Of a stretch of 32,971 nucleotides of DNA, positions 7,001 through 31,339 are shown piece by piece (the stretch's first letter is position 1; every line of letters starts with the position of its first letter). The position numbers were made by a program, and so were the translations under genes. The DNA comes from Parcubacteria group bacterium GW2011_GWA2_40_143 (GTDB lineage: Bacteria; Patescibacteriota; Minisyncoccia; UBA9983): positions 1 through 32,971 of the forward strand of contig LBYH01000008.1 of NCBI GenBank assembly GCA_000996035.1. The letters are read 5' to 3'. The notes below the pieces were generated by a model that had not been told where the DNA came from, did no database searches, and worked only from the letters and a program-made list of their open reading frames with translations.

Positions 7001-9616
7001 GCTATCGGAGTAGTAATTCGTAGTTCTTGAGCCAATTGTGCTAAGAAGCGTCCACGAGGAATTATCAGTTGATCTGTAAACGTGATATGAACCGAAGCCG
7101 GGGCTCGAATCACTTACCGCTTCCCACGCGATAAAAAGTCTATATTCAGCCGGCGAAGTGCTGGTGTTTGTGGTATCTTGAATCATTACATTTGTGGGAG
7201 TGGCCGGAGTGGCAACGGAAACAATAGCTGATTCATTACCATAAGCATCTTTAAATTTGGCATAAACGGTATCGGGATCCGTACCCAAAGATATCGTTGA
7301 CGATGTATTGTATGACCCCCAGCTCGCTCCCGACAAATCGCTATTTAAAGAAATTTTCATTTGCAAAGAAGAATTATCCGAGGCGGCGAGAGTGAGAGTG
7401 GCAGGAGTAGTGGTGGCTTTTACTAAGATTGAAGTTGATGTGGGAATAGTGGTATCAATGACAAATTCCGCTGATTGTGCGTTTGCGCTGTTATTGGCGG
7501 CTTCGTTATCATTTGCCGTTACTCTGATTTTTGCCGCGCTGTAATACTGACTGCCAATAGTGGTGCTTGCCGTCCAAGTGGTGGAATATGAAGTAAAAGT
7601 GGATTGATTGACGGATTTGGTGGTAGTGGCAAGAGTAGCGAGTCCTGAATCTATCGCCGTCCAAGACGCGCCGTTCCAATATTCAAAAGACGGTGTAATA
7701 TATCCCGGGTTTGCCGTGCCGGAATTAGTATCGCTGTCTCTTGTTTCGTAAGAAATTGTTACCAAGCCGTCAGTCCCTTGGCTTGCTGTTACGGTTTGAA
7801 TCTCTGGCGCGGCATTGACGACATAGGTAAATGTAACATCGGAAAGCGTGGGGGTATTTAATCCCGTGCCCGTCATAAAAACTTTGTATTGAACCCATTG
7901 GTCATTGCCTCCGCTCGTAAAAGCGGACGGTATGGCTTCTCCTCCGGCTGGGTCGGTGAAGTAGGTGTCTGATGTACCATCCGGACCGAGCCATGATGTC
8001 CAAGTTCCGGGCGAACCGGAAGAGTCGGGGGCGGTTCTGAGTTGAAACTTAATATCCGTCGCCGACGGCAAATTTTCCGTCCAAGAAATAGATGCCAGAA
8101 CATTTGCCGCATCGCTGGAGTCATAAGGAGAAGAAGTGAGATCGGTGGAAGTGGCATATTGCTGGTAATTTATGGTGATGTCATCAAGGGAGGGGGTGAA
8201 AGCGCTATCGCTGGATAATAAATCAGCGGCAAAATCCAGAGTGCCGGGAGTAAAGCCACCGGAAGATTCCCATTGGGAAGTGGTGATCGCTTCCAAAGTG
8301 GTGCTGGACATGCCGTTTGTCTGCAAATCATCCAGAGTTGAAGTCGTCCATGCCGAACCATTCCAATACTTCCATGTGGAGCGATTGTCAAAAGATATTA
8401 AATATTTTATGGAAGTATCTGTTGGTGTGGTTTGAGTTATAGAAACGCTAGAAATATTAGCCCAGCCGGAAGTATCCAAATTAGAAGCATCAGCCGTGGT
8501 TACATAATAAGCTTGAGAGGAAGAATATGAACCATAAGGCTTTGACGGAACAGCAAAATTAGATATATGTCTTGCTATACCTTTACTAATTCTGACTTCA
8601 TCTAACCATCCACCGAAAGCTCTAAAACCCTCACCATCTGCGCCTATCTTCAGATTAGCATTAACATTCAACATCGCTGTACTTTGAGATTTTGGCGAGT
8701 CAACTGTAGAACCATTCACAAATAAATACCAATTACTGCCATTTCTATCAATTTCGACATGATACCATGTATTACCTGAAGGTACCCAATTCCAAGTAAT
8801 AATTTTCTCAGTGCCATTAACATACCTAAATATAAAACCAGTTCCAACTTGATTATGCATAAACCATTTAGGTTGCAACCCTCCGCCTTGAGATGTGCCC
8901 ATTATACTCTGAATTTCACTAGGCGTCCCATTCCATCTTATCCAAAAATCTATCGTAAAGTCTGAGTCAAAATACCAATCATTACTATCATTCAGTGAAA
9001 CGTATGAGGAAACTGAATTATTAAACAAAACGCTTGAGTTCCCAAATTTACTCTGAGATGTGCTTATTTGAGCAGCACCATTGGCAGTAACGGTTTTAGG
9101 AGTCATTTCGCTATCAATAAAACTAGTAGATCCATTGGAACCATTTGCGTGTAAAAGCAATTTAGTATATGAATCTATTGCTGTTCCGCTCTCCTCTTGC
9201 AAACTAACAATTCCACTTGCAAAACTTGTACCATTTGTGGCATCTTCTTGAATATAATCGCCTTCAGTATCAAAAGAGACATTGGCGCTTGAAGTACTAA
9301 AAACCATCTGCAAGTCAGCGCCGGAGTTTGCCGTGGTCATACCGGTGGTGCTGGCTGAAAACTGATCCCAACTTGTTTGATTGGTAGGGTGAGCGGCGTT
9401 GTTTGCCGTGGCACCTCCCGCCCAATTGGTCTGGCTGAAAGTATAAGTGGCGGCGGAGGCAGATTGATTATTATTGGTGAAAAACAAATTGCCGGCAAAA
9501 GCGATGATAAGCAAGATAGAAACAAATCTAAATGGCATGAGATAAACTCTCTTTTTTTTCAAAACAACAACCCTTTTTATTTTCCGGATTCGGATGTCTC
9601 TTTGCGTTTTTATCAT
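4064..9616 (-). CDS. Giant (1850 aa) exported surface protein: N-terminal signal/TM segment, LamG/concanavalin-like domain, multiple fibronectin type III-like repeats, Gly-linked coiled coil
   Basis: Hydrophobic N-terminus FVSILLIIAFAGNLFF; LamG-like LLHANGSNGSTSFIDS...FTIDFWIRW; repeated FnIII motifs (ITWITDE.A.S.V.YG...HSVTLSGL...T.Y.Y.V.S.D..GN). Confidence 0.85.
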   Translation of the reverse strand: MIKTQRDIRIRKIKRVVVLKKKRVYLMPFRFVSILLIIAFAGNLFFTNNNQSASAATYTFSQTNWAGGATANNAAHPTNQTSWDQFSASTTGMTTANSGADLQMVFSTSSANVSFDTEGDYIQEDATNGTSFASGIVSLQEESGTAIDSYTKLLLHANGSNGSTSFIDSEMTPKTVTANGAAQISTSQSKFGNSSVLFNNSVSSYVSLNDSNDWYFDSDFTIDFWIRWNGTPSEIQSIMGTSQGGGLQPKWFMHNQVGTGFIFRYVNGTEKIITWNWVPSGNTWYHVEIDRNGSNWYLFVNGSTVDSPKSQSTAMLNVNANLKIGADGEGFRAFGGWLDEVRISKGIARHISNFAVPSKPYGSYSSSQAYYVTTADASNLDTSGWANISSVSITQTTPTDTSIKYLISFDNRSTWKYWNGSAWTTSTLDDLQTNGMSSTTLEAITTSQWESSGGFTPGTLDFAADLLSSDSAFTPSLDDITINYQQYATSTDLTSSPYDSSDAANVLASISWTENLPSATDIKFQLRTAPDSSGSPGTWTSWLGPDGTSDTYFTDPAGGEAIPSAFTSGGNDQWVQYKVFMTGTGLNTPTLSDVTFTYVVNAAPEIQTVTASQGTDGLVTISYETRDSDTNSGTANPGYITPSFEYWNGASWTAIDSGLATLATTTKSVNQSTFTSYSTTWTASTTIGSQYYSAAKIRVTANDNEAANNSANAQSAEFVIDTTIPTSTSILVKATTTPATLTLAASDNSSLQMKISLNSDLSGASWGSYNTSSTISLGTDPDTVYAKFKDAYGNESAIVSVATPATPTNVMIQDTTNTSTSPAEYRLFIAWEAVSDSSPGFGSYHVYRSTDNSSWTLLSTIGSRTTNYYSDSTASADTTYYYKIATVDADGNDSYMSSSVSGTANGIQDGEEGGGGSSSVPPVISSVSSNGTQTESSEIRWTTDNLSNSVVGYCVAPCSDFTTNQTTVDSYVTTHSVTLSGLTPNTTYSYKVFSTDASSNTASSSGYTVSTNDGPTISNVSVINVSNVSADIAWNTNEAASGYVFYSTTTPVTASDNEAGWATLSASRTVSLTSLAGGTKYYFFVKSQDADNNWGYDYNITNGTTTYYTLTTPLDITPPTISGVASTTSRSAATITWITDETADSQVIYGATTAYGATTTLNSTLTRTHSVSLSSLLPSSTYNFKVISSDASGNQATSSNYTFATESFDIADVTASTVSNTSMSITWNTNESATSQVEYSTFSDLSSSAFFPSTPSSAATSHAITLSPLSEGTTYYYRASSTDAIGSNTTSQIYQFTTGDATAPAISTVAASPVADTTAVITWITDEPANSKVYYGSTSGTLTSSTDTDSTLTRNHSVTLSGLSYETAYYYQVVSSDGNSNTATSSEGSFTTLEQQINISQQTINTTTIVSGGGGGSGSGGGISLDMYNNVKRERDVIKKERDDLKEEMDSLKNKILGIDLTDGGSFSPVDVISMVINKFTDISESYAETTVSNERTPEQIAALEKDLVPAITSLRQLTRLIPPPKLKTEPRVDALSTEASVKWETDKPSTAAVYYSEDQYYSPSDPDVYTGSVENASNYNINHSITLKGLTPFTKYHYRLMSESEAGAKAYSSDFTFTTNSEMPSIFGGEVRRVGDTSIAVSWKTNIPANSAVIYTPIRGGKPNAKEAKTEGLPEFSKDHNVMLTNMQPDTVYVLEISSTDHFNNVVTKKLDTYSVTKDQAPPEIVQVRAESSILSGSTDKVQTIIYWKTDEPSTTKVVYERGANIKENGEFTKSTMENEDLTLNHIAVITSWEPGVIYQFRAVSVDAFGNEAQSKTFTVLTPKQKATVLDLIINNFSDTFNWTKEIKF

Positions 9617-12216: not shown

Positions 12217-13890
12217 TTATTCAAAATATTCCGGCGCGTTTTTAGCTATCCAGTCCAAGAGACGGCTTGTGGCGTATGGCGCGCCGGTAGTGGTGCCGGC
12301 CGGACCATTCTCTAGTAGCATGGTAAAAATATACTTCGGGTTCTCATAAGGGAAAAAGCCCATAATCCAAGAGTGAATGAAGCGCTTGCCGGCGCCGGTT
12401 TCGGCCGTGCCGGTTTTGGCGGCAATCTTTACTTCCGGTCGGCTCAGCCCTTGGGCAGTGCCGCCAGTTACCGCCATTCTCATGCCTTCTTTTACTATTT
12501 TGAAATATTCATCCGGAATTTTTATTTTCTTACCGTCATATTCAGACAGGTTTTCGTCTTTTACAATTTTTGGCTTAAGCAAGATTCCATTGTTGGCTAT
12601 GGCGGCGGTGTAAACAGCTATCTCAAGAGGAGTGGAAAGAAAATAACCCTGTCCGATGCTTGATATATACGTGTCGCCTATTCGCCAAAGAGGATCGCCC
12701 GGATTATTTTGCTTTTTCACTTCTTGACTTGGCACCACACCAGAAGCTTCGCTTGGCAAATCTATGCCGGTGCCATCTCCAAGCCCAAACATTTTGGCAT
12801 ACTCCTCAAGTTTGTTTATGCCAAGACCTCTTATTTCCTCATAACCGCCACCTATCTCGTAGAAATACACATCGGATGAAACAGCGAGAGCTCTCTTCAT
12901 ATCCACCCAACCATGCGCTTTCCAATCTTTAAACACGCTTTTAATTTCCGGGTAAAAAGGATTTTGCACCGAGATACTGCCGGAGCTGAATATTTGCTTA
13001 TCCGGCGAAATTATTCCTTCGTTTAAAGCAGCGATGGCCACCATGGGTTTTACCACCGAGCCGGGCGCGTATAATCCGGAAATCGCTCTGTTTAAAAATG
13101 GCTTATGATCGTCTGTTAAAAAAGCATTGATCTTATCTGCCGGCTTGCCTCTGGACATAATTTGAGAATCATACTCCGGCCAGCTGGCCATAGAAATTAT
13201 TTCTCCCGTTCGCGCGTCCATAATAATGCCAACTCCACCGGAAAATTTATTGTTTTTAGCGGTATCTCCCAATATCTTATACATCTCGCTCTGAAGTTTG
13301 GCGTCTATGGAAAGATAAATATTGTCTCCGCTTTGAGGATGAGTCTGGACGCTTTCGGAAATAATATTTCCTTGGGAGTCTCTTTCCGCCAAAGCCGTGC
13401 CGACGATTCCTCTTAATTCTTTCTCAAAGTTTTTTTCTACGCCACTTTTACCGATCTCCATATTAAGCAAAATGTCTTTGTCTGATTCAATATCTTCTTT
13501 GGAAGGAAGTCCCACGTAACCCAAGGTATGACTAAGTCCGTCCATGTCGGTATAAAGTCTCTCCTTCTCTCCGTTCCAAGCAAGAATTATATTGTTTCGG
13601 TCATAAATTACTCCTCTCATGGGAGCAAGCGTTTCTTTTCTGAGTTTATTGTTTAAGCTTCTGTTTGCCAGTTCGTCTCCCCGCACAATTTGCAAGTAAA
13701 ACACTTTGGAAGTAAAGAACATGGCTATCAAAAAAAGAGCGGCGGAAAAATACAAAAAAGTTTTTTTGGATATGGCTCTCTCAAACCGGCCTTCAAATTG
13801 GCTGGTTTCAAAGTTTGGCATATTGCGAGAATCTATAAGAATCTCATCGGGAAAAATATTTTGTTTGAATTTTTTTTTCTTGAAAAACAT
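12217..13890 (-). CDS. mrdA: Penicillin-binding protein 2 (peptidoglycan transpeptidase)
   Basis: SxxK in YAPGSVVKPM, KTGTAE motif, RGVIYDRNNIILA dimer domain; in the mre cluster. Confidence 0.92.
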   Translation of the reverse strand: MFFKKKKFKQNIFPDEILIDSRNMPNFETSQFEGRFERAISKKTFLYFSAALFLIAMFFTSKVFYLQIVRGDELANRSLNNKLRKETLAPMRGVIYDRNNIILAWNGEKERLYTDMDGLSHTLGYVGLPSKEDIESDKDILLNMEIGKSGVEKNFEKELRGIVGTALAERDSQGNIISESVQTHPQSGDNIYLSIDAKLQSEMYKILGDTAKNNKFSGGVGIIMDARTGEIISMASWPEYDSQIMSRGKPADKINAFLTDDHKPFLNRAISGLYAPGSVVKPMVAIAALNEGIISPDKQIFSSGSISVQNPFYPEIKSVFKDWKAHGWVDMKRALAVSSDVYFYEIGGGYEEIRGLGINKLEEYAKMFGLGDGTGIDLPSEASGVVPSQEVKKQNNPGDPLWRIGDTYISSIGQGYFLSTPLEIAVYTAAIANNGILLKPKIVKDENLSEYDGKKIKIPDEYFKIVKEGMRMAVTGGTAQGLSRPEVKIAAKTGTAETGAGKRFIHSWIMGFFPYENPKYIFTMLLENGPAGTTTGAPYATSRLLDWIAKNAPEYFE

Positions 13891-13891
13891 T

Positions 13892-14191
13892 CTAATTTAA
13901 AACACCCAAGCCGCCCAGCCTGATTTTACTTTTTGCCAGTTTAACAAGAAGAAGCAATAAAACAGCCGAGAAAAAAAATATGCCGAAACGCAAATCAGGC
14001 GAGTTTGATGGCATATAATAAAAAGAATCTATGGCCAAAGCGGCAAAAACACCTTCCCAAAAATTATTAAAAAAGATTATGGAAAAAGCGATAACGGGAG
14101 CGGCGACATACCATGGCAACAGAAATATGAAAAGAAAAAAGATAATATCAAACAAAATCCTTATCGTGTTTTTTTTGGCGAAAAAAGACAT
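13892..14191 (-). CDS. Small membrane protein at the MreD position
   Basis: Several hydrophobic segments; sits between mreC and PBP2; only 99 aa. Confidence 0.5.
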   Translation of the reverse strand: MSFFAKKNTIRILFDIIFFLFIFLLPWYVAAPVIAFSIIFFNNFWEGVFAALAIDSFYYMPSNSPDLRFGIFFFSAVLLLLLVKLAKSKIRLGGLGVLN

Positions 14192-14192
14192 T

Positions 14193-14990
14193 TTACTCCG
14201 TTAAAATTACGCTCCTTAGATAATTAATATTTATTGGCAAGCGAAAAATAATTTTTTTAAAAGGATTATTCGTATCGGCTTCAATCTTCTCCGCGATACC
14301 GGCCGTATACGGGAATATGCCGGTCGTGATGATGCTTTCGCCAATCGCAACTTCTATTTGACCGGGAATCTGGAGCTCCATATTGCCGCCTCCAGTGCCA
14401 ACAGCTATAGCCGAAATACTGGCATTCTCAAGTATCACGCCAATCTCTTCTTTAGGAAAAGAAAGGAGCTTTACCTTGCTTGAAACTTCAGACACTTCCG
14501 TCACGTAACCTATTAAAATTTCTCCATGAGCAACCGCTTTCATGCCAAGCCTTACGCCTTCTTTCGCGCCGGCATCAAGAACAAGCATATCGTAAGGCGA
14601 TTGCGGCGGCCTCATTATCACCGAAGCAAGCACGACGTTCTTTTCCCTCTCTCTGCCAAACAAAGCTTTGAGTTCAATATTTTCTTCCTTCAGCCTGTCG
14701 GCGGAAAGAGCGACAACTTCAAGCGTTTCATTCTCTTCTGCCAGACGGTCAATTTCCAGATTCATCTTTTTTTTGTTTTTTAATATACCGGCAAAATTAT
14801 GCCATCTTTTGGAAATTATTTGTCCCGTTTTGGCAAACGGATAAAACACCGTTGAAACCGATTTTGCCACTATCTCTCTGGCGCCGCCGCTAAAGATAAC
14901 GAGCAAGAGAAAAACAAGCAAAACAGCCAACGTTGTTCTTTTTTTGAATCCCCTTTTTTTATTTTGGCGGTATTGCTTCCTCATGATCAA
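14193..14990 (-). CDS. mreC: Rod shape-determining protein MreC
   Basis: N-terminal TM, coiled coil, VIMRPPQSPYDMLVLDAGAKEGVRLGM and TTGIFPYTAGIAEKIE motifs; adjacent to mreB. Confidence 0.88.
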   Translation of the reverse strand: MIMRKQYRQNKKRGFKKRTTLAVLLVFLLLVIFSGGAREIVAKSVSTVFYPFAKTGQIISKRWHNFAGILKNKKKMNLEIDRLAEENETLEVVALSADRLKEENIELKALFGREREKNVVLASVIMRPPQSPYDMLVLDAGAKEGVRLGMKAVAHGEILIGYVTEVSEVSSKVKLLSFPKEEIGVILENASISAIAVGTGGGNMELQIPGQIEVAIGESIITTGIFPYTAGIAEKIEADTNNPFKKIIFRLPININYLRSVILTE

Positions 14991-16035
14991 GTAATATGTC
15001 TCCCAAATTTTCTATTTCTTCAAGAATAATGCCGGTGCCTCTCACCACGGCGGTAAGCGGATCTTCCGCCACATACACAGGTATGCCAAGTTCGCTTTCA
15101 AACATTTTAGACAAACCCCTCAAGAAGGCGCCGCCGCCGGCCATTATTATACCACGATGCATAATATCTGAAACAAGCTCCGGCGGTGTTTCTTCCAGCA
15201 CCTCTTTGGTGGCATCCACCAAAGACTCTATGGATTTTATGATAGCTTCTCTTACGTCCGAATCGGTAATCACCACTTCTCTGGGCAAACCAGTGATGAG
15301 ATCTCTCCCTCTTACAGCCGCCTCAAGACCCTCGCCTTTTTTTATAACAGACCCTACGGCAATCTTTAAGTCTTCCGCCGTTTTTTCACCCAAAAGAATT
15401 TTAAATTCGTCTCTTACATATTGGATAATATCCTGATTAAGCTTGTCTCCGGCCACGCGCATGTTTTTGGAAGACACTATGCCGCTTAAAGAAATTACGG
15501 CAATATCGGTGGTGCCGCCACCTATGTCTATGATCATATTGCCTACCGGTTCATGCACCGGCAGTCTTACTCCCACGGCTGCCGCCATCGGCTCTTCCAC
15601 AATCATCACTTCGCCGGCGCCGGCGCTCTTGGCGGCGTCTCTCACCGCCCTCACTTCCACGTTTGTAATGCCAGACGGAACGCCAATCACTACTCTCGGC
15701 CTGGCGAAAATACCTCTGCTGCTTTTCGTAACTTTTTTTATAAAATAAGCGAGCATCTCTTGAGTAACTTCGTAATCGGACACTACGCCGTCCACTAACG
15801 GTCTTATCGCTTTTATGTGAGCCGGTGTTCGGCCAAGCATTCTCTTGGCCTCATTGCCTATAGCCACCACCTGACCGGTTTTCTCGTTTATCGCCACCAC
15901 CGACGGCTCATTTATCACAATACCTTCGCCTTCCACGTACACCAGAGTATTGGCCGTACCAAGATCTATGCCGATTCCGCCCGAGAGAAGCATTCTTTTG
16001 AATTTCCCAAAAATTTTAAAGTTTTTGAATTTCAT
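14959..16035 (-). CDS. mreB: Rod shape-determining protein MreB
   Basis: GIDLGTANTLVYVEGEGIVINEPSVVA, IDIGGGTTDIAVIS. Confidence 0.97.
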   Translation of the reverse strand: MKFKNFKIFGKFKRMLLSGGIGIDLGTANTLVYVEGEGIVINEPSVVAINEKTGQVVAIGNEAKRMLGRTPAHIKAIRPLVDGVVSDYEVTQEMLAYFIKKVTKSSRGIFARPRVVIGVPSGITNVEVRAVRDAAKSAGAGEVMIVEEPMAAAVGVRLPVHEPVGNMIIDIGGGTTDIAVISLSGIVSSKNMRVAGDKLNQDIIQYVRDEFKILLGEKTAEDLKIAVGSVIKKGEGLEAAVRGRDLITGLPREVVITDSDVREAIIKSIESLVDATKEVLEETPPELVSDIMHRGIIMAGGGAFLRGLSKMFESELGIPVYVAEDPLTAVVRGTGIILEEIENLGDILLDHEEAIPPK

Positions 16036-17272
16036 TTAAGATTTCATTTGTTTTTATAATTTTTCCGGCCGTTTCGTTTCTCAACTTGAGTTCTACTCCA
16101 CCGGAGCTTAGAGTTTTATCGCTCACCACTATTCTATAAGGCAAGCCTATCAGATCGGCTTCGGCAAACTTCTCTCCTGCGCGGACATCGTCTCTGTCGT
16201 CATGCAATGTGTCTATGCCGGCTGCTTCAAACTTGACGCTCAATTCTTCCGCGGCTTTCTTCACGTCATCATTGGTCTTGCCTATCTCCAAAACATGAGC
16301 TTTAAACGGCGCCACTTCCGCCGGCCATCGCATGCCGTTTTCATCACTGAGAATTTCCGTTATCGCGCCCATCAGCCTGCCAAGTCCTATGCCGTAACAA
16401 CCCATAATCATCGGCTTATCCTCGCCCTTATCGTTTGTAAATTTAAGATTAAAAGGACTGGAATATTTGTCTTTAAGCTTAAAGATATTGCCTACTTCCA
16501 CCGACTTCTTCTCTTCCAAATTTTTATTGCCACATTCGGGACAAGCTTTGCCGTTATCATCCGCTATTTCTCTATTCAAAGCCACTGAGCACTTGGGACA
16601 TACGTAAATGATATCTTCTCCGGCTTCGGTGATTGCCTGATACTCGTGGGAATACTTTGAGAAGCTGCCGCCGGAAGCGAAAGTAAGATGTGTTACGTTT
16701 CCTATGCCGCACCGAGCAAAAATATTTTCATAATGCGTTTTCATATTCTCGTAATATTTATCCAAATCTTCTTCACTCGTGTGGAAAGAGTAATAGTCTT
16801 TCATCAAAAATTCTCTTCCTCGCAAAATACCGGACTTGGCGCGCTTTTCGTCTCTGAACTTATTTTGAAATTGGAAGAGGCCAAGCGGCAGATCTTTATA
16901 AGAGAGATTAAACTTTTTAACGAGCGGCGAAATAACTTCTTCGTGAGTGGGACCCAGCGCCAATTCCGTTTCCGAATAAAAGCTGGTAAATTTAAACAGA
17001 TCATCCAAGCTATCCCACCTGCCGGTTATCTGCCAATTCTCCTTTGGATGAAGAGACGGCATGAGCAGCTCCTGTCCGCCGGCCTTTGTCATCTCGTCTC
17101 TTATAACATTCTCTATCTTTTTAAGGGTTCTGAGACCAAGCGGCAAATAGGTATAAACACCGGCCATAAGCTTATCTATAAAGCCGGCGCGAATAAGAAG
17201 TTGAGCGTTTTTTGACACCTCGTCTTTAGGCGCTTCTTTTCTGGCTCGAGGAAAGAGTTTAGACTGTTTCAT
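16016..17272 (-). CDS. proS: Proline--tRNA ligase, short form lacking the INS editing domain
   Basis: LGPTHEEVISPL, FRDEKRAKSGILRGREFLMKDYYSFH, class II motif 3 GCYGIGLGRLMGA; 418 aa with CPKC...CPEC in the middle. Confidence 0.92.
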   Translation of the reverse strand: MKQSKLFPRARKEAPKDEVSKNAQLLIRAGFIDKLMAGVYTYLPLGLRTLKKIENVIRDEMTKAGGQELLMPSLHPKENWQITGRWDSLDDLFKFTSFYSETELALGPTHEEVISPLVKKFNLSYKDLPLGLFQFQNKFRDEKRAKSGILRGREFLMKDYYSFHTSEEDLDKYYENMKTHYENIFARCGIGNVTHLTFASGGSFSKYSHEYQAITEAGEDIIYVCPKCSVALNREIADDNGKACPECGNKNLEEKKSVEVGNIFKLKDKYSSPFNLKFTNDKGEDKPMIMGCYGIGLGRLMGAITEILSDENGMRWPAEVAPFKAHVLEIGKTNDDVKKAAEELSVKFEAAGIDTLHDDRDDVRAGEKFAEADLIGLPYRIVVSDKTLSSGGVELKLRNETAGKIIKTNEILNEIQKL

Positions 17273-17328
17273 TACTCAATAATAAAGCCAAAATCAACCG
17301 CGGTCAAATAGCAAAATTTAAATTTTTA

Positions 17329-17709
17329 TCACTTAATCTTATTTTTCTCCAAAAAATCTCTGACTTTTTTAACCACGTCAGGGGGCATTACGACGGTTTT
17401 TTCCCAAAAATATTCAGCTCCAAGTTCCAGCATTTGACTTTGGAATTTCCTTTTGTCCATATTGGTTAAAATGATAACTGGAATATTTTTTGTTTCGGGA
17501 TTTTTTTTAAGCCTTTTGATCACTTCCTCGCCGGACATTTCTTCCATATTCAAATCAAGAATAATCAAATCGGGGTGTTCATTTTTAGCCCTGTCCAAAC
17601 CGATTTTGCCGTCAATAGCGCTTATAATATTAAAACCGTTCATTTTAAAAACAGTATGATAAAGCAATATCTGATCGTTGTCGTCTTCAATTAGCAATAT
17701 TTTTGCCAT
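17329..17709 (-). CDS. Response regulator receiver protein
   Basis: IEDDNDQ, DLIILDLNM phospho-acceptor, VIILTNMDK; single REC domain. Confidence 0.92.
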   Translation of the reverse strand: MAKILLIEDDNDQILLYHTVFKMNGFNIISAIDGKIGLDRAKNEHPDLIILDLNMEEMSGEEVIKRLKKNPETKNIPVIILTNMDKRKFQSQMLELGAEYFWEKTVVMPPDVVKKVRDFLEKNKIK

Positions 17710-17713
17710 AAAA

Positions 17714-19270
17714 TTAAGTTTGAAAAGTTATAATAAATTCCGTTCCTTTATTTTCTTCGCTATTAAATTTTATACTTGCCTCGCTATGAGCGTCTATGAT
17801 TTCCTTTGATATGAAGAGTCCGAGTCCCGAGCCATCCGTATACATATCTCTAGCATTTCTCGCCCGTTCAAACTTTCCGAACATTCTGCTCTTGTCTTCG
17901 TTTGGTATGCCAACCCCCGTGTCTTTAACTTTAACGATAACCTCTTTCTCGTCTTCGTCCAACATAATATCAATCCTGCCAGCTTTCGTATATTTTATAG
18001 CATTATCCACAATGTTTGCAATCGCCTGCGTCAAATAAAATTCATCGGAAATAATCGGCGAAATCTTGGCTCTCGTTTTAATGAAGTTCAATTCCAACCC
18101 TTTCTCGTCGGCTTCTTCTTTGGAATCGTCTTTTATTTTTATGAGTAATTTCTCCAAATCAACCGGTTCCAACCTTCCTTCCGGTAAAGAAAATTTTTCC
18201 GTGTCAAATTCAGACGCCGACAATATATCGCGGACAATGCCGGAAAGCTTAACCGACTTGCGGTAAATGTTTTCCACGAATTTTTTCTGCTGTTCTTTGG
18301 GAAGTTTGCCAATGGATCCTTCCCTAAACATTGAAGCGGTGCCCATAATGACGGATATGGGCGTTTTAAGCTGATGCGACGCGATATCCAAAAATTCCGA
18401 TCTCATCTTCATCAATTTTTCAATATGCTCTCTTTGTCGCACCTCTTTAAAAACGCTTCTGATCAAAAAATAACCGATAAGAATCGCCACCAAAAAAATA
18501 ATTATCTTAAACCACAAGTTATTATCATTAAAGAAAATATTTACAAACAAAATGGAAAGCAATAATCCGACAAGAATTTCTGATGTTATTGTTTTAATAC
18601 CCATCAAATGATGTTTGGTTATGGCGTAAGTTATAGCCACAACCATTATTATTAACGAATATGGGCCAATCCAAACAAATTGATATGTGTAAAAAGGAAG
18701 GAATAAATTAAAAGCAAGAGCAAAAATACTGGCGGTAATTGTTCCAAAAACAATGAACTTTAATTGAGTTTTTTCAATACCGGACACATTTCTAAAACGT
18801 TTGATAATGGCGAAAATGGCATAACCCATATAACTGACAATATGCGTCACGTAGAAAAAATAAGCAGGTCCTAATTTAATACTTTTTCCCCATGGTTCTA
18901 GTGAATAATCTTTTATAAAATGAAAATTAGCAAGCAATATGATTATCGTGATTATGTTCGGCGAATGAATAAGCAAGTGATTTAAAAAATTTATTTTACC
19001 TATATTTTTATTGTCAAAAAATAACGCGAAATATAAAAAATAAGTGATACAAAAGGAAGCGCTTATGTAAAAAAGTGTCGCCCAATATATTCCATTTTCA
19101 AAACTGCTCATTCTGAACATACCAAGACCAAATATCCAAAAAAAGGTGGCAACAAGCGTTAAAAAGAAAAAGAAATTGGCTTTATTTTTTAAGCCACGAA
19201 AAAATATTAACGCCGCCAAACCGCCGTTAAGCAAAGAAATTAAAAGAAGAGTTAATGTTATCATATTCAT
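17714..19270 (-). CDS. Sensor histidine kinase with multi-TM N-terminus
   Basis: H-box DIASHQLKTPISV, N-box NIVDNAIKYT, G-boxes KDTGVGIP, DGSGLGLFISKEI. Confidence 0.93.
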   Translation of the reverse strand: MNMITLTLLLISLLNGGLAALIFFRGLKNKANFFFFLTLVATFFWIFGLGMFRMSSFENGIYWATLFYISASFCITYFLYFALFFDNKNIGKINFLNHLLIHSPNIITIIILLANFHFIKDYSLEPWGKSIKLGPAYFFYVTHIVSYMGYAIFAIIKRFRNVSGIEKTQLKFIVFGTITASIFALAFNLFLPFYTYQFVWIGPYSLIIMVVAITYAITKHHLMGIKTITSEILVGLLLSILFVNIFFNDNNLWFKIIIFLVAILIGYFLIRSVFKEVRQREHIEKLMKMRSEFLDIASHQLKTPISVIMGTASMFREGSIGKLPKEQQKKFVENIYRKSVKLSGIVRDILSASEFDTEKFSLPEGRLEPVDLEKLLIKIKDDSKEEADEKGLELNFIKTRAKISPIISDEFYLTQAIANIVDNAIKYTKAGRIDIMLDEDEKEVIVKVKDTGVGIPNEDKSRMFGKFERARNARDMYTDGSGLGLFISKEIIDAHSEASIKFNSEENKGTEFIITFQT

Positions 19271-20893: not shown

Positions 20894-21616
20894 CTACTGC
20901 TCTATTATACCTTTGACACGCAAAAGAAAATCCTTAAAATCCTTTGTTGAAAAATATACTTCTTTTGTTTCATAAATATGAGTCGCTAGTTTAGGATAGT
21001 TTTGAAGACCGCCACGATCTATAAACCATGGCCAAAATTTTATAAAATCCTCATCATAACTCAGCATTACCCATGCAATAAGTTCAGATATCTCCCAGAG
21101 CTTGTGTTCGGTGTCATTTAAAAAAATATCTCTCAAGTGATTCCACAAATAGGCAATTAATATCTCATGCGCGGTTATTTTACGCATTGTAAAAGGATTT
21201 TCTCTCCACCCTCTAACAACGACATTATTACCCCAGCTCGCCAAGCCATGAAAAAAAGCTGTGACATGACAATCATAAACAGGAAAATGTGAACTAAGCT
21301 TTGTTTTTTTATTTATCAATTCAAAGAATTTATCATTTATTTCGTCCCATGAGTTTTGATACAACTTTGATGTTTTTTCGATAAAATGACCATAAGATTG
21401 ATAGAGCTTGCTTACATATAAATCAATATTTTTGTCGTTAATTTCTCCGTAGTTTTTTTCTATTTCCGGCCATATTGTATCAGCAAGATTTTTTTTATCC
21501 AGGTAGATGCTCTTAAGCAGCTCGGAATCACGCTGCTTATCCGAGAAGAAATTTAATTTAACATTTTTATTCATGTAATAATAATAAGCAAATGGAGCAT
21601 TTTTTGCAAATAACAA
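20894..21616 (-). CDS. Hypothetical protein with degenerate HExxH-like motif (AHEILIA), apparent paralogue of 28102..28767
   Basis: Shared pattern DC..., HE[IV], W[ED][IL]SE[LI], PK...IY in both ORFs. Confidence 0.55.
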   Translation of the reverse strand: MLFAKNAPFAYYYYMNKNVKLNFFSDKQRDSELLKSIYLDKKNLADTIWPEIEKNYGEINDKNIDLYVSKLYQSYGHFIEKTSKLYQNSWDEINDKFFELINKKTKLSSHFPVYDCHVTAFFHGLASWGNNVVVRGWRENPFTMRKITAHEILIAYLWNHLRDIFLNDTEHKLWEISELIAWVMLSYDEDFIKFWPWFIDRGGLQNYPKLATHIYETKEVYFSTKDFKDFLLRVKGIIEQ

Positions 21617-21678: not shown

Positions 21679-23043
21679 TTAAACTAAAACAGGTTTCTGT
21701 GCCTTAGCTTTAATGCACAACCACAAATCTCTTATAATCCAATCTATTGTCATTTTGGCATGAACACAAAACCTCTCATCTAGTTCCCATATTGATCCTT
21801 TTGAAATTTCAGCGTCACAAGGACATCCACCACCGCACGTGCCAAGCGCGACGCAAGATTGACATTTTTCCATAGTGATAGGCGAACGTTTTTTCCATTC
21901 TTTGTATGTTGGGGTGTCCTCAACAATCAACTCATTGTCAAATACAGTCCCAACGAAATGCTTGCGCGATCCAATGTAACCATGGCAAATTCCGACTTGA
22001 CCATCTGGAGCAACAACTAATTGCCTACCGCCTCCGGCAGCACAATCGTATGGATGTATTTTCTGCTTTGAAAAAGAATTTATTTTCCGCATAATTCTAT
22101 CTTCATAGATTCCTTTTTCCCTGAAAATCTTATATGCGTTTATTATAAACTCAGCAGCTCTAGTCTCATAATCTTCTCTGAGTTTAATAGAATGTCCGCG
22201 AGCCAATATATTGAAACCTAAACCCTTGACCCCAATCTCATTAATCAAAAACTCGATAGTGCTTTTTTGATTTTTAATCGTTTCTTCGTTGATAGTGCAA
22301 GATATTCCAACAGGAATATCTTTACTTTTCAATAGTTTTATTTTTTTCATCACACGATCAAAAATCGGCTCTCCGTAAAAATCACGACGGTGTAGGTTGG
22401 TTGCAATTTTTTCACCATCAATAGATATTGAAACATTTACCTTTTTCTCGCGTATGAAATCCGCCAATTCAGATGTAAAGAATAGACCATTAGAAACCAT
22501 GTTAATGCTTAATGACTTTGGCAAGGATCCTTTTTCTTTAAGATGCGCAATATATTTTATGGCTTCCATAAAAACTTTTTTATTCATTAGTGGCTCGCCA
22601 CCATAAAATATAATTGTTTTTTTCTTCTCAAAGTAATCTGGATGTCGTTTTATGGCTTCAGCAAAAAAATCAATCGATTTTTTTGCCGTTTCGGTTGACA
22701 TAAAAATTCTACTTTGCTCTTCTGGTATTTGATTTTCTATAAAACAATAATCGCAAGCCAAATTACATGCATCTGTTAAAAGTAAGTACATAACAGAGAC
22801 TGGCGATGGTAAAGACATCAATGATTTTATTGTTTTGTCTAACAAGTTTTTATCTTCATCTTCTGATTTAACTACCATTCCAGCACTATATAACTTATCA
22901 CTATAAGCATCAAGTTTATTCAGTCCTTCTATTTGATTAATTAATTCTCTGGAAACAAATATGACTTTAATGTTTAGAGAATGATATAGTGCCACCATAT
23001 CTTTATCAACCGGTATTGTGTGAACAAATCTAGACAATTTCAT
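21679..23043 (-). CDS. Radical SAM/SPASM peptide maturase
   Basis: LTDACNLACDYCF (CX3CX2C), FYGGEPL, SPASM Cys cluster CQSCVALGTCGGGCPCDAE...FCVH; start with RBS AAGGAGG at 23043 (ORF track extends to 23148). Confidence 0.93.
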   Translation of the reverse strand: MKLSRFVHTIPVDKDMVALYHSLNIKVIFVSRELINQIEGLNKLDAYSDKLYSAGMVVKSEDEDKNLLDKTIKSLMSLPSPVSVMYLLLTDACNLACDYCFIENQIPEEQSRIFMSTETAKKSIDFFAEAIKRHPDYFEKKKTIIFYGGEPLMNKKVFMEAIKYIAHLKEKGSLPKSLSINMVSNGLFFTSELADFIREKKVNVSISIDGEKIATNLHRRDFYGEPIFDRVMKKIKLLKSKDIPVGISCTINEETIKNQKSTIEFLINEIGVKGLGFNILARGHSIKLREDYETRAAEFIINAYKIFREKGIYEDRIMRKINSFSKQKIHPYDCAAGGGRQLVVAPDGQVGICHGYIGSRKHFVGTVFDNELIVEDTPTYKEWKKRSPITMEKCQSCVALGTCGGGCPCDAEISKGSIWELDERFCVHAKMTIDWIIRDLWLCIKAKAQKPVLV

Positions 23044-23080
23044 TAGATCCTCCTTATTATCTTTAAAGTTTAAAGAATGT

Positions 23081-23112
23081 GCACGCAAACATAGTACTTC
23101 ATGTTTGCGTGC
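23081..23112 (-). promoter_or_regulatory. Perfect hairpin between RiPP precursor and maturase
   Basis: GCACGCAAACAT-(8 nt)-ATGTTTGCGTGC, 12-bp perfect stem, no strong U-tract. Confidence 0.7.
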
Positions 23113-23126
23113 ATTTCCCTGATGGC

Positions 23127-23276
23127 TCATGGATAACATGAACCGCAATCACAAGCACATTGACAATCGCAAGCCGTACAATTTAATCCATCAAATGATT
23201 CCATGTCTAAATTGCTCTTGATTTGAATTAAATCATTTTGATCCGGCTCGTAAAAAATTATCTCAATGTTCCCCAT
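23127..23276 (-). CDS. Cys-rich RiPP precursor peptide (49 aa), ranthipeptide/thioether-type candidate
   Basis: MGNIEIIFYEPDQNDLIQIKSNLDMESFDGLNCTACDCQCACDCGSCYP*; RBS AAAGGAGGT upstream of ATG; 7 Cys in the last 17 residues; directly upstream of the radical SAM/SPASM gene; absent from the ORF track (<60 aa). Confidence 0.88.
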   Translation of the reverse strand: MGNIEIIFYEPDQNDLIQIKSNLDMESFDGLNCTACDCQCACDCGSCYP

Positions 23277-23280
23277 TTTT

Positions 23281-23519
23281 AACCTCCTTTCTTTTTTCTA
23301 ACTTTCCAAAAATAAAATACGGTTTGTGTTTTTTCTTTGTCGGTCATACCTCCTTTCTTGATTTAATGGTTATTTTTATTAATTTTTTAAAGAATCAATC
23401 TATTTTAGAGGCTACCATAGGGGGGGGGTAAAAGTCAATCGTAAGAAAAATTCGCGCTTCTGTTTTTTTACACCTCCGGTAACTCCACGCCCAACGTCAA
23501 ACCCCAATGTCAAGGTTGA
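23281..23519 (-). repeat. Leader/promoter repeat copy R1
   Basis: 23429-23519 is identical to 30836-30926 (91 bp, or 99 bp counting the shared G8); the remainder is similar with small indels. Confidence 0.92.
23411..23438 (-). promoter_or_regulatory. Promoter: TTGACT / TTTA C9 TATGG / TAGCCT
   Basis: -35-like TTGACT and extended -10 TGGTAGCCT separated by 18 nt that include a C9 tract. Confidence 0.6.
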
Positions 23520-27796: not shown

Positions 27797-27880
27797 CTCC
27801 TTTCTTAGCTTTAGTTTCGGTTAATTTTTAAAGAACTTATTTAAGTTAAAGGCTACCATAGGGGGGGGGTAAAAAGTCAA
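27785..27880 (-). repeat. Leader/promoter copy R2 (shorter, diverged)
   Basis: TTGACTTTTTA-C9-TATGGTAGCCT, TTCTTTAAAAATTAA, AAAGGAGGTGAAACCGACAAA match R1/R3 elements. Confidence 0.75.
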
Positions 27881-28101: not shown

Positions 28102-28767
28102 TTACGACAACGCAACCAGACTTTCTTTTATAAACTTTTCCATATTACCATCGCTTTCTTGCCATTTTTTTTCAATTATTGAATAAATTTCTTTATGTTT
28201 TGGATAAAATATTTTCTCTTGCTTTTTAATAATTTTTTGAAACGCCAATTGATTTAAAATAATAACATTGAATATTTCCGACAGATCCCAATATTTGCCT
28301 TGATTTTGATCCATGCCGTTTACTATACCGCCAAGATTAGCGCGACAATAATCAAAGAAAATAAAATGAATAACTTCATGAAAAATAACCCTCAATTTAT
28401 CTTGATTGCTTCTTTTGTAATATACTTGAAAAACATTTTTATCCAAATACCTTGGATTGCAATCAAAAATTGACAATGTTCCACAATATTCTTTGCTTGA
28501 AAAATCTTGTTTGAAAATATCTTTCACGGCGTTAAAAAAATCAACTTGCCTTTGTTGCGCTAGATCATTAATTTCCAATAACGATTTTGTTAATTCTTCT
28601 TTGTTTTTATCATAATAATCGTTTATATATTCTTGATAATTGTCTTTACTTACGGTTGGATGACTTTTAATTATTTTTTCACCAAAATCAACACCTCCCG
28701 CTTTTAATTCAAAGAAGTTCAGAAAGGTTTCTTTATCCAAATTTTTATCTAAAGTTATTTTTATCAT
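28102..28767 (-). CDS. HExxH metallopeptidase-like hypothetical protein
   Basis: VIFHEVIHFIFF (HExxH) and downstream YWDLSE acidic motif. Confidence 0.65.
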   Translation of the reverse strand: MIKITLDKNLDKETFLNFFELKAGGVDFGEKIIKSHPTVSKDNYQEYINDYYDKNKEELTKSLLEINDLAQQRQVDFFNAVKDIFKQDFSSKEYCGTLSIFDCNPRYLDKNVFQVYYKRSNQDKLRVIFHEVIHFIFFDYCRANLGGIVNGMDQNQGKYWDLSEIFNVIILNQLAFQKIIKKQEKIFYPKHKEIYSIIEKKWQESDGNMEKFIKESLVALS

Positions 28768-28781
28768 TATGTGTAAATAAT

Positions 28782-28815
28782 AAGAGCTCCTCTGTAAAAA
28801 TCAAGAGGAGCTCTT
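28782..28815 (-). terminator. Putative terminator/hairpin downstream of the ATP-grasp gene
   Basis: AAGAGCTCCTCT-(10 nt)-AGAGGAGCTCTT, perfect 12-bp stem. Confidence 0.65.
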
Positions 28816-28903
28816 TAAGATCTGTTTATAAAGATCCCATTCCCATACTAAGAAATCCATTATTTCTTTTAACTTCGAAATAGTGTCTTTATCAACATAA
28901 TTA

Positions 28904-29896
28904 TTAGAAATGATACTGCTCGGGTGCGACAAGAAGTTCAGCGATAGCTTCCCCAATCGGCAATCCCGTTAAACGTTCAATCCAAAGCCATTGTCCATTG
29001 GGGTTTATCTCGAGAAAAACGTAGTTATTTTGTGGCGTAACAATTACGTCAATGCATCCGAAAGCAAGGCCTAATTGACGTACGAGCGTCCGACATTTTT
29101 CTTCAATCTCTACTGGAAGCTCAAACGATTCATGTGGCGTATTAGCCAAGTCGTAATGTCGCCAATCTTCTCGCGTTCTTTCAGACTTCTGCGAAAAGAT
29201 TGCGCAGGCAAAAACCTTATCACCTACAACTGTAATTCTAATTTCAAACTTTTTCGGTACATATTCCTGTATGATAGTGGGACAATTTTGCAATTGTTTT
29301 AGCATACCTTGAAGATTATCTGCATCCATGCGTTTTGTATACATAATTAGTGAATCAACACCATTGTGTTCCTGAAACTCAATGCTAGGCATACATATAG
29401 TTTTAAGCGCTACTTCGTCAAGGTCGTCAAGAAACTTATATGCCGCCTGCGCTGAGTTTGTAATCAATGTCTTAGGAATATTAAAACCAATAGACTTGGC
29501 TACCAATAATTGATACGATTTTCTTGAAGCTACGCCAATTGCATCAGGGTCACTAAGCCAGAATACCGATGGCGAGAGGATTTGTGGCAATGAATCAAGA
29601 AAAAATTGGGATTCTCTAGTTATATATTCCCTTACATTTTGACTATTTACCCCAATTGGCGGAGAGGGAGCGCCTTTGCGGCGATTCCAAACGCTCTTTA
29701 CATCACGACAGTCAATCAAATTTTGTCCAACAGACAATCGAACAAAATTTGAATCCACAGAGACTTCAAAACTAATGCTACTTTTTTTTGGGTAAGTTGA
29801 AAAATCAAAGAGTAAATGGCACACGCCCTTTCTAGTTAAAATCTCACTCACATATTGGCAATGAGCGTCATCTGGATTTGACAATACAAAGATCAT
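28904..29896 (-). CDS. ATP-grasp RiPP ligase (MvdD/graspetide synthetase-like)
   Basis: N-terminal MIFVLSNPDDAHCQYV; IIQEYVPKKFEIRITVVGDKVFA; VFLEINPNGQWLWIERLTGLPIGEAIAELL; RBS AAAGGAGG. Confidence 0.88.
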   Translation of the reverse strand: MIFVLSNPDDAHCQYVSEILTRKGVCHLLFDFSTYPKKSSISFEVSVDSNFVRLSVGQNLIDCRDVKSVWNRRKGAPSPPIGVNSQNVREYITRESQFFLDSLPQILSPSVFWLSDPDAIGVASRKSYQLLVAKSIGFNIPKTLITNSAQAAYKFLDDLDEVALKTICMPSIEFQEHNGVDSLIMYTKRMDADNLQGMLKQLQNCPTIIQEYVPKKFEIRITVVGDKVFACAIFSQKSERTREDWRHYDLANTPHESFELPVEIEEKCRTLVRQLGLAFGCIDVIVTPQNNYVFLEINPNGQWLWIERLTGLPIGEAIAELLVAPEQYHF

Positions 29897-29897
29897 T

Positions 29898-30440
29898 TTA
29901 GACCTCCTTTATATTTTTTCTTTTGTTTTTTTTATTCAAACCAACATTCAATCTTAACCGTTTCATGTTGACAGTAAACGATTCAAGGCCAGCATTTTTT
30001 CTTCGTCTTGCTAAATTTTTTTTATCTCTAATAAGATAAGGTTTCAAAAGATTTTGTTCTGATTCATAACGAAACTGAGTGCCATAAATCTGCTTTTTCC
30101 TATTTTTAACAAGCATGCGATCAATCAAATAAGCAAGATTTTTTTTACTCGCTTCTCCTATTTTTACTGCTTTTTTTATAAGACACAAACATTTTTCTTG
30201 GAATTTAACATCATGATCAGCATGTTGGGCAATTAACCATGCGGCATCTGCCGCCTTTTCACCAACTAAACTTTTACCAGGCCAACCATATTTATTGATT
30301 ATCTTCTTGAGTTTTTCAGTATTTTTCATATCAACATTTGCATTCCAATTAGACCGTTTTTTCATAAAAAGTTTTCTCATTTTTTGGTCTCTTTCAATCA
30401 TCAACAACAGGGATTCTTTGATTTTTTTATTGGGGACCAT
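29898..30440 (-). CDS. DUF6624-like protein
   Basis: AAWLIAQHADHDVKFQEKCLCLIKKAVKIGEASKKNLAYLIDRMLVKNRKKQIYGTQF pattern; start codon in hairpin arm. Confidence 0.7.
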   Translation of the reverse strand: MVPNKKIKESLLLMIERDQKMRKLFMKKRSNWNANVDMKNTEKLKKIINKYGWPGKSLVGEKAADAAWLIAQHADHDVKFQEKCLCLIKKAVKIGEASKKNLAYLIDRMLVKNRKKQIYGTQFRYESEQNLLKPYLIRDKKNLARRRKNAGLESFTVNMKRLRLNVGLNKKNKRKNIKEV

Positions 30441-30489
30441 ATATACTAAATCATACTAGAGTTTGGTTTAGTAGTCTATGGTCCCCATT
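30429..30489 (-). promoter_or_regulatory. Long imperfect hairpin between graspetide precursor and DUF6624 gene
   Basis: GGGGACCATA...TACTAAA / TTTAGTA...TATGGTCCCC, ~17 bp paired; contains the ATG at 30440. Confidence 0.7.
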
Positions 30490-30506
30490 TTTTATGGATG
30501 ATTATT

Positions 30507-30689
30507 TCAATCCGTATCGTATGATCCAGGTCCATCCGGGTGAGACATGCTTTCTTCTCCCGCAAACCTCGTTCCCATATCAATATTATAATTTCCTCGC
30601 TTAGCTGGTTCCCCAAACAAAAACATCAATGGGATCATTTCTAAATTATCACCCGGAAAAAATTCCTTTAAATCATTCATTTTGTTCAT
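30507..30689 (-). CDS. Graspetide-like precursor peptide (60 aa)
   Basis: MNKMNDLKEFFPGDNLEMIPLMFLFGEPAKRGNYNIDMGTRFAGEESMSHPDGPGSYDTD*; RBS GGGAGGTG; Ser/Thr plus Asp/Glu-rich C-terminus; upstream of the ATP-grasp ligase. Confidence 0.75.
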   Translation of the reverse strand: MNKMNDLKEFFPGDNLEMIPLMFLFGEPAKRGNYNIDMGTRFAGEESMSHPDGPGSYDTD

Positions 30690-30699
30690 TGCTATCACC

Positions 30700-30926
30700 T
30701 CCCTTTTCTTCCTAAAATTTCCAGAAAATAAAATACGGTCTTTTCTTTGTCGGTCTCACCTCCTTTCTTGATTAATGGTTATTTTTATTAAATTTTCAAA
30801 GAATCAATCTGTCTTAGAGACTACCACGGGGGGGGTAAAAGTCAATCGTAAGAAAAATTCGCGCTTCTGTTTTTTTACACCTCCGGTAACTCCACGCCCA
30901 ACGTCAAACCCCAATGTCAAGGTTGA
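30700..30926 (-). repeat. Leader/promoter repeat copy R3
   Basis: 30836-30926 identical to 23429-23519; homologous leader elements downstream; TTGACT/C8/GTGGTAGTCT promoter. Confidence 0.92.
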
Positions 30927-31339
30927 CGGCTGGTCGCTCGGTAAATGAGAATTGTGTCAAAGACTTTGAGGCCGTTCTCGCCACCGTAAAATTCACGGAA
31001 TACAATGCTTCTACTCAGACCACAATGCACATACAACTTCTCGGTCTTACCTCGAAAAGTCAAACTGTATTGCCCGTTTTACAATATAGTGTTGACGGAA
31101 ATGTTAGCGGTAACAGCTACGTTAGTATCGTTAGCCAGAGTTCGGGAGCGACAATTTGGACCATGGAGCAAGAACCATCAGGTACGCACGACATTGACCT
31201 AAACACACTTACCGCAATTGGCGGTTCTCCAGTGAAAATTACTAATGGATATATTTCTTGCGAGTTCTGGACAAATTCGCTGATAACACAGGCGACGCTC
31301 TTCTGGAGTGCACCACTCCCAGCAAGTGTGTTGCAGTGA
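30914..31339 (+). CDS. Hypothetical protein, probably 5'-truncated at repeat R3
   Basis: Open frame whose ATG lies inside the repeat; beta-rich composition; no recognised family. Confidence 0.4.
   Translation: MSRLTAGRSVNENCVKDFEAVLATVKFTEYNASTQTTMHIQLLGLTSKSQTVLPVLQYSVDGNVSGNSYVSIVSQSSGATIWTMEQEPSGTHDIDLNTLTAIGGSPVKITNGYISCEFWTNSLITQATLFWSAPLPASVLQ

Follow-up and report, generated by a model that had tools for sequence, protein, structure and literature searches.

A putative FibroRumin-type RiPP precursor–maturase pair with a zincin-like partner and a candidate phase-variable promoter in a Parcubacteria group bacterium

Organization of the locus

We analyzed a stretch of 32,971 nucleotides (the window), positions 1–32,971 of contig LBYH01000008.1 of Parcubacteria group bacterium GW2011_GWA2_40_143, whose genome measures 729 kb. 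On the reverse strand lie, in order of transcription, a promoter-like sequence, an ORF for a 49-aa peptide, a hairpin, a gene for a 454-aa radical SAM/SPASM maturase and a gene for a 226-aa zincin-like protein. A preliminary description, made from the letters of the window alone, had singled out the small peptide, and the translation of 23127–23276 (−) reproduces the peptide it gave exactly. As described there, all seven Cys (positions 33, 36, 38, 40, 42, 44, and 47) are confined to the last 17 residues, five of them in i,i+2 alternation, and a ribosome-binding site, AAAGGAGG, stands ahead of the ATG. The peptide was divided into a putative leader (residues ~1–32) and a Cys-rich core (33–49), and it is the sole ORF of the window with seven Cys in 20 residues, the runner-up having five. 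No Pfam model and no NCBIfam model, TIGR04135 included, matched it, and searching the relatives with this peptide alone returned only itself and weak chance matches. A 22-aa ORF (MTDKEKTQ...) upstream of the precursor was judged spurious because its start is not kept in a repeat copy of the region at 30690–30940. The only Rfam match in the window was one tRNA.

The maturase gene occupies 21679–23043 (−), its start being the ATG at 23043 with its own AAGGAGG site, in correction of a mechanical call at TTG 23148. The enzyme carries both the CX3CX2C motif (C93/C97/C100) and the SPASM Cys cluster of the preliminary description, the latter comprising seven residues (C334, C353, C394, C397, C403, C407, and C426); these three SAM-cluster and seven SPASM Cys show no variation among 14 aligned sequences. 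The AF2 model (pLDDT 89.2) has a β-β-β-α-α-α N-terminus (residues ~7–76), which we read as a predicted RRE-like domain, followed by the radical SAM barrel and the SPASM region. In a Foldseek search against solved structures, the best match of the model was CteB (5wgg/5why; TM 0.71) and the second TigE (8vpo).

Family membership and phylogeny

The best NCBIfam match of the maturase was TIGR04136 (FibroRumin, 386.5 bits), followed by PapB (162.3 bits), and the SCIFF model TIGR03974 scored 121.6 bits. The last two values are below the curated cut-offs of 340 and 425 bits, respectively, and the core contains neither CX3D nor SCIFF motifs, which sets the pair apart from ranthipeptides of the PapB or SCIFF type. 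TIGR04135 is the NCBIfam model for the “FibroRumin family radical SAM-modified Cys-rich RiPP”, and the precursor resembles this family in its CxC-dense C-terminal core and in its position next to the maturase, although neither member of the pair reaches the curated cut-off (400 bits for TIGR04136; 45 bits for TIGR04135, which gave no match).

Relatives were gathered by a profile scan of named genomes and by searches of phylum and class genomes, giving 34 maturases; a single-sequence scan of genome contigs had returned nothing, whereas the profile scan succeeded. In the tree of these 34 rows, the FibroRumin maturases, including those of Bacillota, and the window maturase formed one clade with 97/97 support, inside which the window maturase had no defined position. 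The clade includes Berkelbacteria, Falkowbacteria and others among the Patescibacteria, and elsewhere Lachnospiraceae, Ruminococcus, [Eubacterium] yurii, Bacillus, Spirochaetaceae, Bacteroidales, Cloacimonadota, and a Proteobacteria MAG.

The preliminary description did not recognize the core spacing as that of a described class, a view that we do not retain: CX2CXCXCXCXC recurs in five loci (L010, L016, L017, L020, and L022), and the precursor pair of L016 scored 62.5 and 54.9 bits with TIGR04135, above the 45-bit cut-off. Judged by sequence, the window pair is a divergent branch of the named, uncharacterized FibroRumin family, divergent since its maturase and precursor both fall under the curated cut-offs. 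We found no mention of FibroRumin or TIGR04136 in open-access papers.

Conservation of the precursor and its core

A strict scan found a Cys-dense small ORF upstream of the maturase in 20 of 24 CPR loci, against 15 of 600 control tiles (2.5%), and in all 10 loci of other phyla, against 9 of 222 control tiles; combined, 30/34 loci had such an ORF as compared with 2.5–4% of control tiles. Absence of the short ORF ahead of maturase homologues had been named in the preliminary description as grounds for giving up its reading, and the ORF is conserved in both sets. Three CPR loci were added by eye to the strict count: in L123 the precursor lies ahead of the zincin gene on the opposite strand, and in L132 and L133 a precursor with three Cys lies upstream of the maturase. 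L135, which scored 196 bits and in which the scan detected no Cys-dense ORF, was excluded as belonging to another radical SAM family.

The leader motif [hydrophobic]xGx[hydrophobic] was present in 26 of 31 precursors, compared with 4.4 in shuffled sequences. The window leader carries QIKSNL, with Ser where the motif of the relatives has Gly. Scored against a profile of the other precursors, the window peptide exceeded 200/200 full shuffles, and its score was matched by 5/200 leader-only and 10/200 core-only shuffles, a modest signal. The proposal of a RiPP precursor–maturase pair is thus well supported by conserved co-occurrence, the leader motif in relatives, the RRE-like N-terminus, and a radical SAM/SPASM fold closest to CteB.

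Across the 31 precursors, Cys is the single constant feature of the core. Core length and spacing vary widely between loci, the residues between the Cys are variable (A, S, N, R, K, D, and T) with no constant acceptor, and Trp is the last residue of several precursors. CxC arrays are similar to the cores of metallothioneins, and freely varying intervening residues are what would be expected of ligands rather than acceptors; the run might therefore bind Zn, Cu or Fe, the SPASM enzyme only trimming or priming a metallothionein-like or cluster-carrying peptide. We regard this as quite improbable, given a leader motif and a constant SPASM maturase partner with an RRE, both typical of RiPPs, the lack of a Pfam match for the 49-aa peptide, and the wide change in core length and spacing between loci, which is unlike a conserved metal site. 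That the two genes form a RiPP precursor–maturase pair we consider nearly certain, and a cross-linked Cys core made by a FibroRumin-type pair is the explanation that we consider likely.

For the cross-links themselves, Cys-sulfur-to-carbon thioethers are the most likely form by analogy, because CteB, a thioether former, has the closest fold and Cys is the constant core feature. SPASM enzymes of one fold carry out many chemistries, and the second closest solved structure is TigE, so the maturase might instead introduce a C–C or C–N link, an epimerization or a TigE-like cyclopropane, the Cys serving another purpose. The same two observations, CteB as nearest structure and Cys as the one constant of the core, speak against such a non-thioether change, to which we assign a smaller but appreciable chance.

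The zincin-like partner

The zincin-like protein adjoining the maturase (20894–21574, −) has the sequence HEILI, in which HE and the downstream Glu are kept and the second His of HExxH is missing; it thus departs from the zincin signature of HExxH with a downstream Glu. Members of this 220–250-aa family lie near the maturase in 22 of 23 CPR loci and in none of the 10 other loci, mostly ≤85 nt downstream of it on the same strand or convergent; the gene is upstream in L116 and further off in L122 and L134. Most members have HExxH with the downstream Glu, and six, including 20894–21574, are without the second His. Of the three members encoded in the window genome, two lie in the window and the third on another contig (C11, 17280), adjoining another SPASM enzyme.

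The family occurs in 27 of 188 class genomes. Among 20 zincin loci without a FibroRumin maturase, some are near another radical SAM or an ATP-grasp gene and most have neither detected, so that a restriction of the family to maturase loci was rejected. No Pfam model matched 20894–21574, and a structure search gave a non-significant match to the M1/M4 peptidase fold (E 0.34). We give even chances to a peptidase role for the adjacent family, in leader removal or product handling; leader peptidase is a likely but unproved function because of the non-significant structure match and because most of those 20 other loci lie away from any detected maturase. Since 20894–21574 lacks one zinc ligand, the cutting may fall to its paralogue at 28102–28767 (−), which has an intact HEVIH with a downstream Glu and stands at the end of a sister cluster.

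Hairpin and C-tract promoter

A hairpin with a 14-bp stem (23080–23113, −; z −5.3) separates the precursor stop from the maturase start, and strong hairpins follow the precursor in most CPR loci. It may be a partial terminator or an mRNA stabilizer. Upstream of the precursor, the promoter-like sequence TTGACT–TTTAC9TATGG–TAGCCT (23409–23438, −), of the form TTGAC–C9–TATGGTAGCCT, holds a poly-C tract in the spacer between −35 and −10. G9 counterparts occupy the same position upstream of the precursor in L122, L022, and L019, giving with the window C9 four unrelated lineages, and no other C or G run of ≥8 occurs in the 219 kb that the remaining CPR loci span; all three lie in the promoter spacer, against 0.07 expected there, the placement looked for in a phase-variable promoter. 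The exact window promoter was absent from 36/36 relatives searched.

A tract of this kind in the promoter spacer of four unrelated loci suggests phase-variable production, and we propose tentatively, at somewhat less than even odds, that expression of the precursor cluster may vary in phase through the C9 tract. A class-wide pattern search returned 11 G-run promoters in 384 genomes. The idea that G- or C-run promoters mark RiPP genes only was rejected: most of these matches precede pilins or other, unrelated proteins, so the device is not RiPP-specific. As a further candidate for phase variation, two pilin-like genes of one genome (L176 and L177 in G329) have an identical TTGAC...G12...TAAAAT promoter.

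Nine copies of the C-tract promoter, with tract lengths of C6–C9, lie in the window genome and precede the precursor, a graspetide-like cluster, hisS, and further radical SAM operons. The 5′ region of the precursor (23277–23519, −) is repeated upstream of the graspetide-like cluster with 88.8% identity over 242 nt, 99 nt of which are identical. This module (30880–30940 and 23460–23519; L147 12235 and 15616) also has an inverted repeat resembling TGTCAAGGTTCAACCTTGACA, complete in the copies of L147, and an apparent histidine kinase gene tail, as if copied from downstream of such a gene. The hisS copy lies at 27850–27880 of the window; on another contig (L149, 722) the promoter precedes a hisS fragment, with a TatD-like tail upstream as at the former site. 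On contig C11 (L147), three SPASM-type radical SAM operons stand behind the promoter (4925–7405, 12235–15139, and 15616–17996), two of which open with a small ORF (46 and 32 aa); each has zincin-like or Peptidase_MA_2-like genes in its vicinity, and one operon carries a ThrRS with an N-terminus shorter than the family model.

The graspetide-like cluster is a second RiPP cluster (28102–30940, −), consisting of a 60-aa candidate precursor, a DUF6624 protein, an MvdD/SAV_5884-like ATP-grasp peptide ligase (28904–29896, −), and the zincin-like paralogue. The candidate precursor (30507–30689, −), under its own copy of the promoter, contains the motif PLMFLF; Phhx(1,2)h is a motif given in PMC8939145. 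A repeated C6–C9 promoter module may thus have come to stand ahead of a number of operons for RiPPs or radical SAM enzymes (FibroRumin-type, graspetide, and at least two further SPASM operons), a reading that we hold as possible though doubtful. Individual cells would then express different subsets of modified peptides, and with similar reserve we suggest that Patescibacteria with tiny genomes might carry phase-variable RiPP arsenals.

Proposed mechanism

In the scheme that we favor, the 49-aa peptide would be produced as leader plus core, and the maturase would hold the leader by an RRE-like domain at its N-terminus and would use its SAM cluster together with a pair of auxiliary Fe-S clusters to place cross-links on the CX2CXCXCXCXC core. 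The hairpin probably holds precursor transcripts above the level of those for the maturase. Leader removal or handling of the product would be the task of the adjacent zincin-like family, with the 28102–28767 paralogue perhaps cleaving in place of 20894–21574, and the C9 tract would make expression phase-variable.

We infer that the product is secreted and helps the bacterium cope with host or competitor cells. The precursor–maturase locus contains no dedicated exporter and the genome is small, and SCIFF-like systems may be of an intracellular, cofactor-like or signalling type, all of which would fit a conserved peptide that stays in the cell. Such a peptide would not be expected to be as patchily distributed as this maturase (found in 16 further genomes among the 384 of the class), to diversify its core as fast or to have a phase-variable-like promoter, and we consider it unlikely.

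Comparison with known systems

FibroRumin is a named family whose chemistry we found in no open-access paper. The Patescibacteria branch extends it by 20-odd divergent precursors, accompanied by a single maturase clade and well suited to finding what the CxC core becomes, and contributes a candidate partner peptidase to FibroRumin-type systems. It also raises the hypothesis, open to testing, that ultra-small bacteria living as parasites or symbionts toggle RiPP production by promoter slippage. New here are the partner gene and the candidate phase-variable promoter in the CPR branch of the family; neither these nor the hairpin figured in the preliminary description.

The window pair shares with FibroRumin (TIGR04135/TIGR04136) the maturase clade, the CX2CXCXCXCXC of type-A peptides, and a precursor directly upstream of the maturase, and differs in scoring below both curated cut-offs and in its C-tract promoter. 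Several Bacillota FibroRumin loci have two or more precursor types, whereas the window has one. In place of the zincin-like partner, L011, L012, L014, L016, L017, and L020 (Bacillota and a Spirochaete) have a UvrA-like ABC ATPase of ~711 aa downstream of the maturase; the analogy to self-resistance proteins of UvrA-like type suggests that the product of those loci may act on DNA. An RRE-like N-terminus and a SPASM Cys set for two auxiliary clusters are common to the window maturase, CteB (5wgg, SCIFF/thermocellin), and the PapB ranthipeptide system, from which the window core differs in having neither SCIFF spacing nor CX3D repeats. The CPR graspetide loci of PMC8939145 (branches 1 and 2) are likewise RiPP clusters with zincin-type peptidases nearby, and the second cluster of the window fits among them. 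SPASM maturases are noted in some of those loci; PMC8939145 centers on ATP-grasp loci, the portion used here has no CxC precursor or FibroRumin family, and in these two features the window pair stands apart from the graspetide systems.
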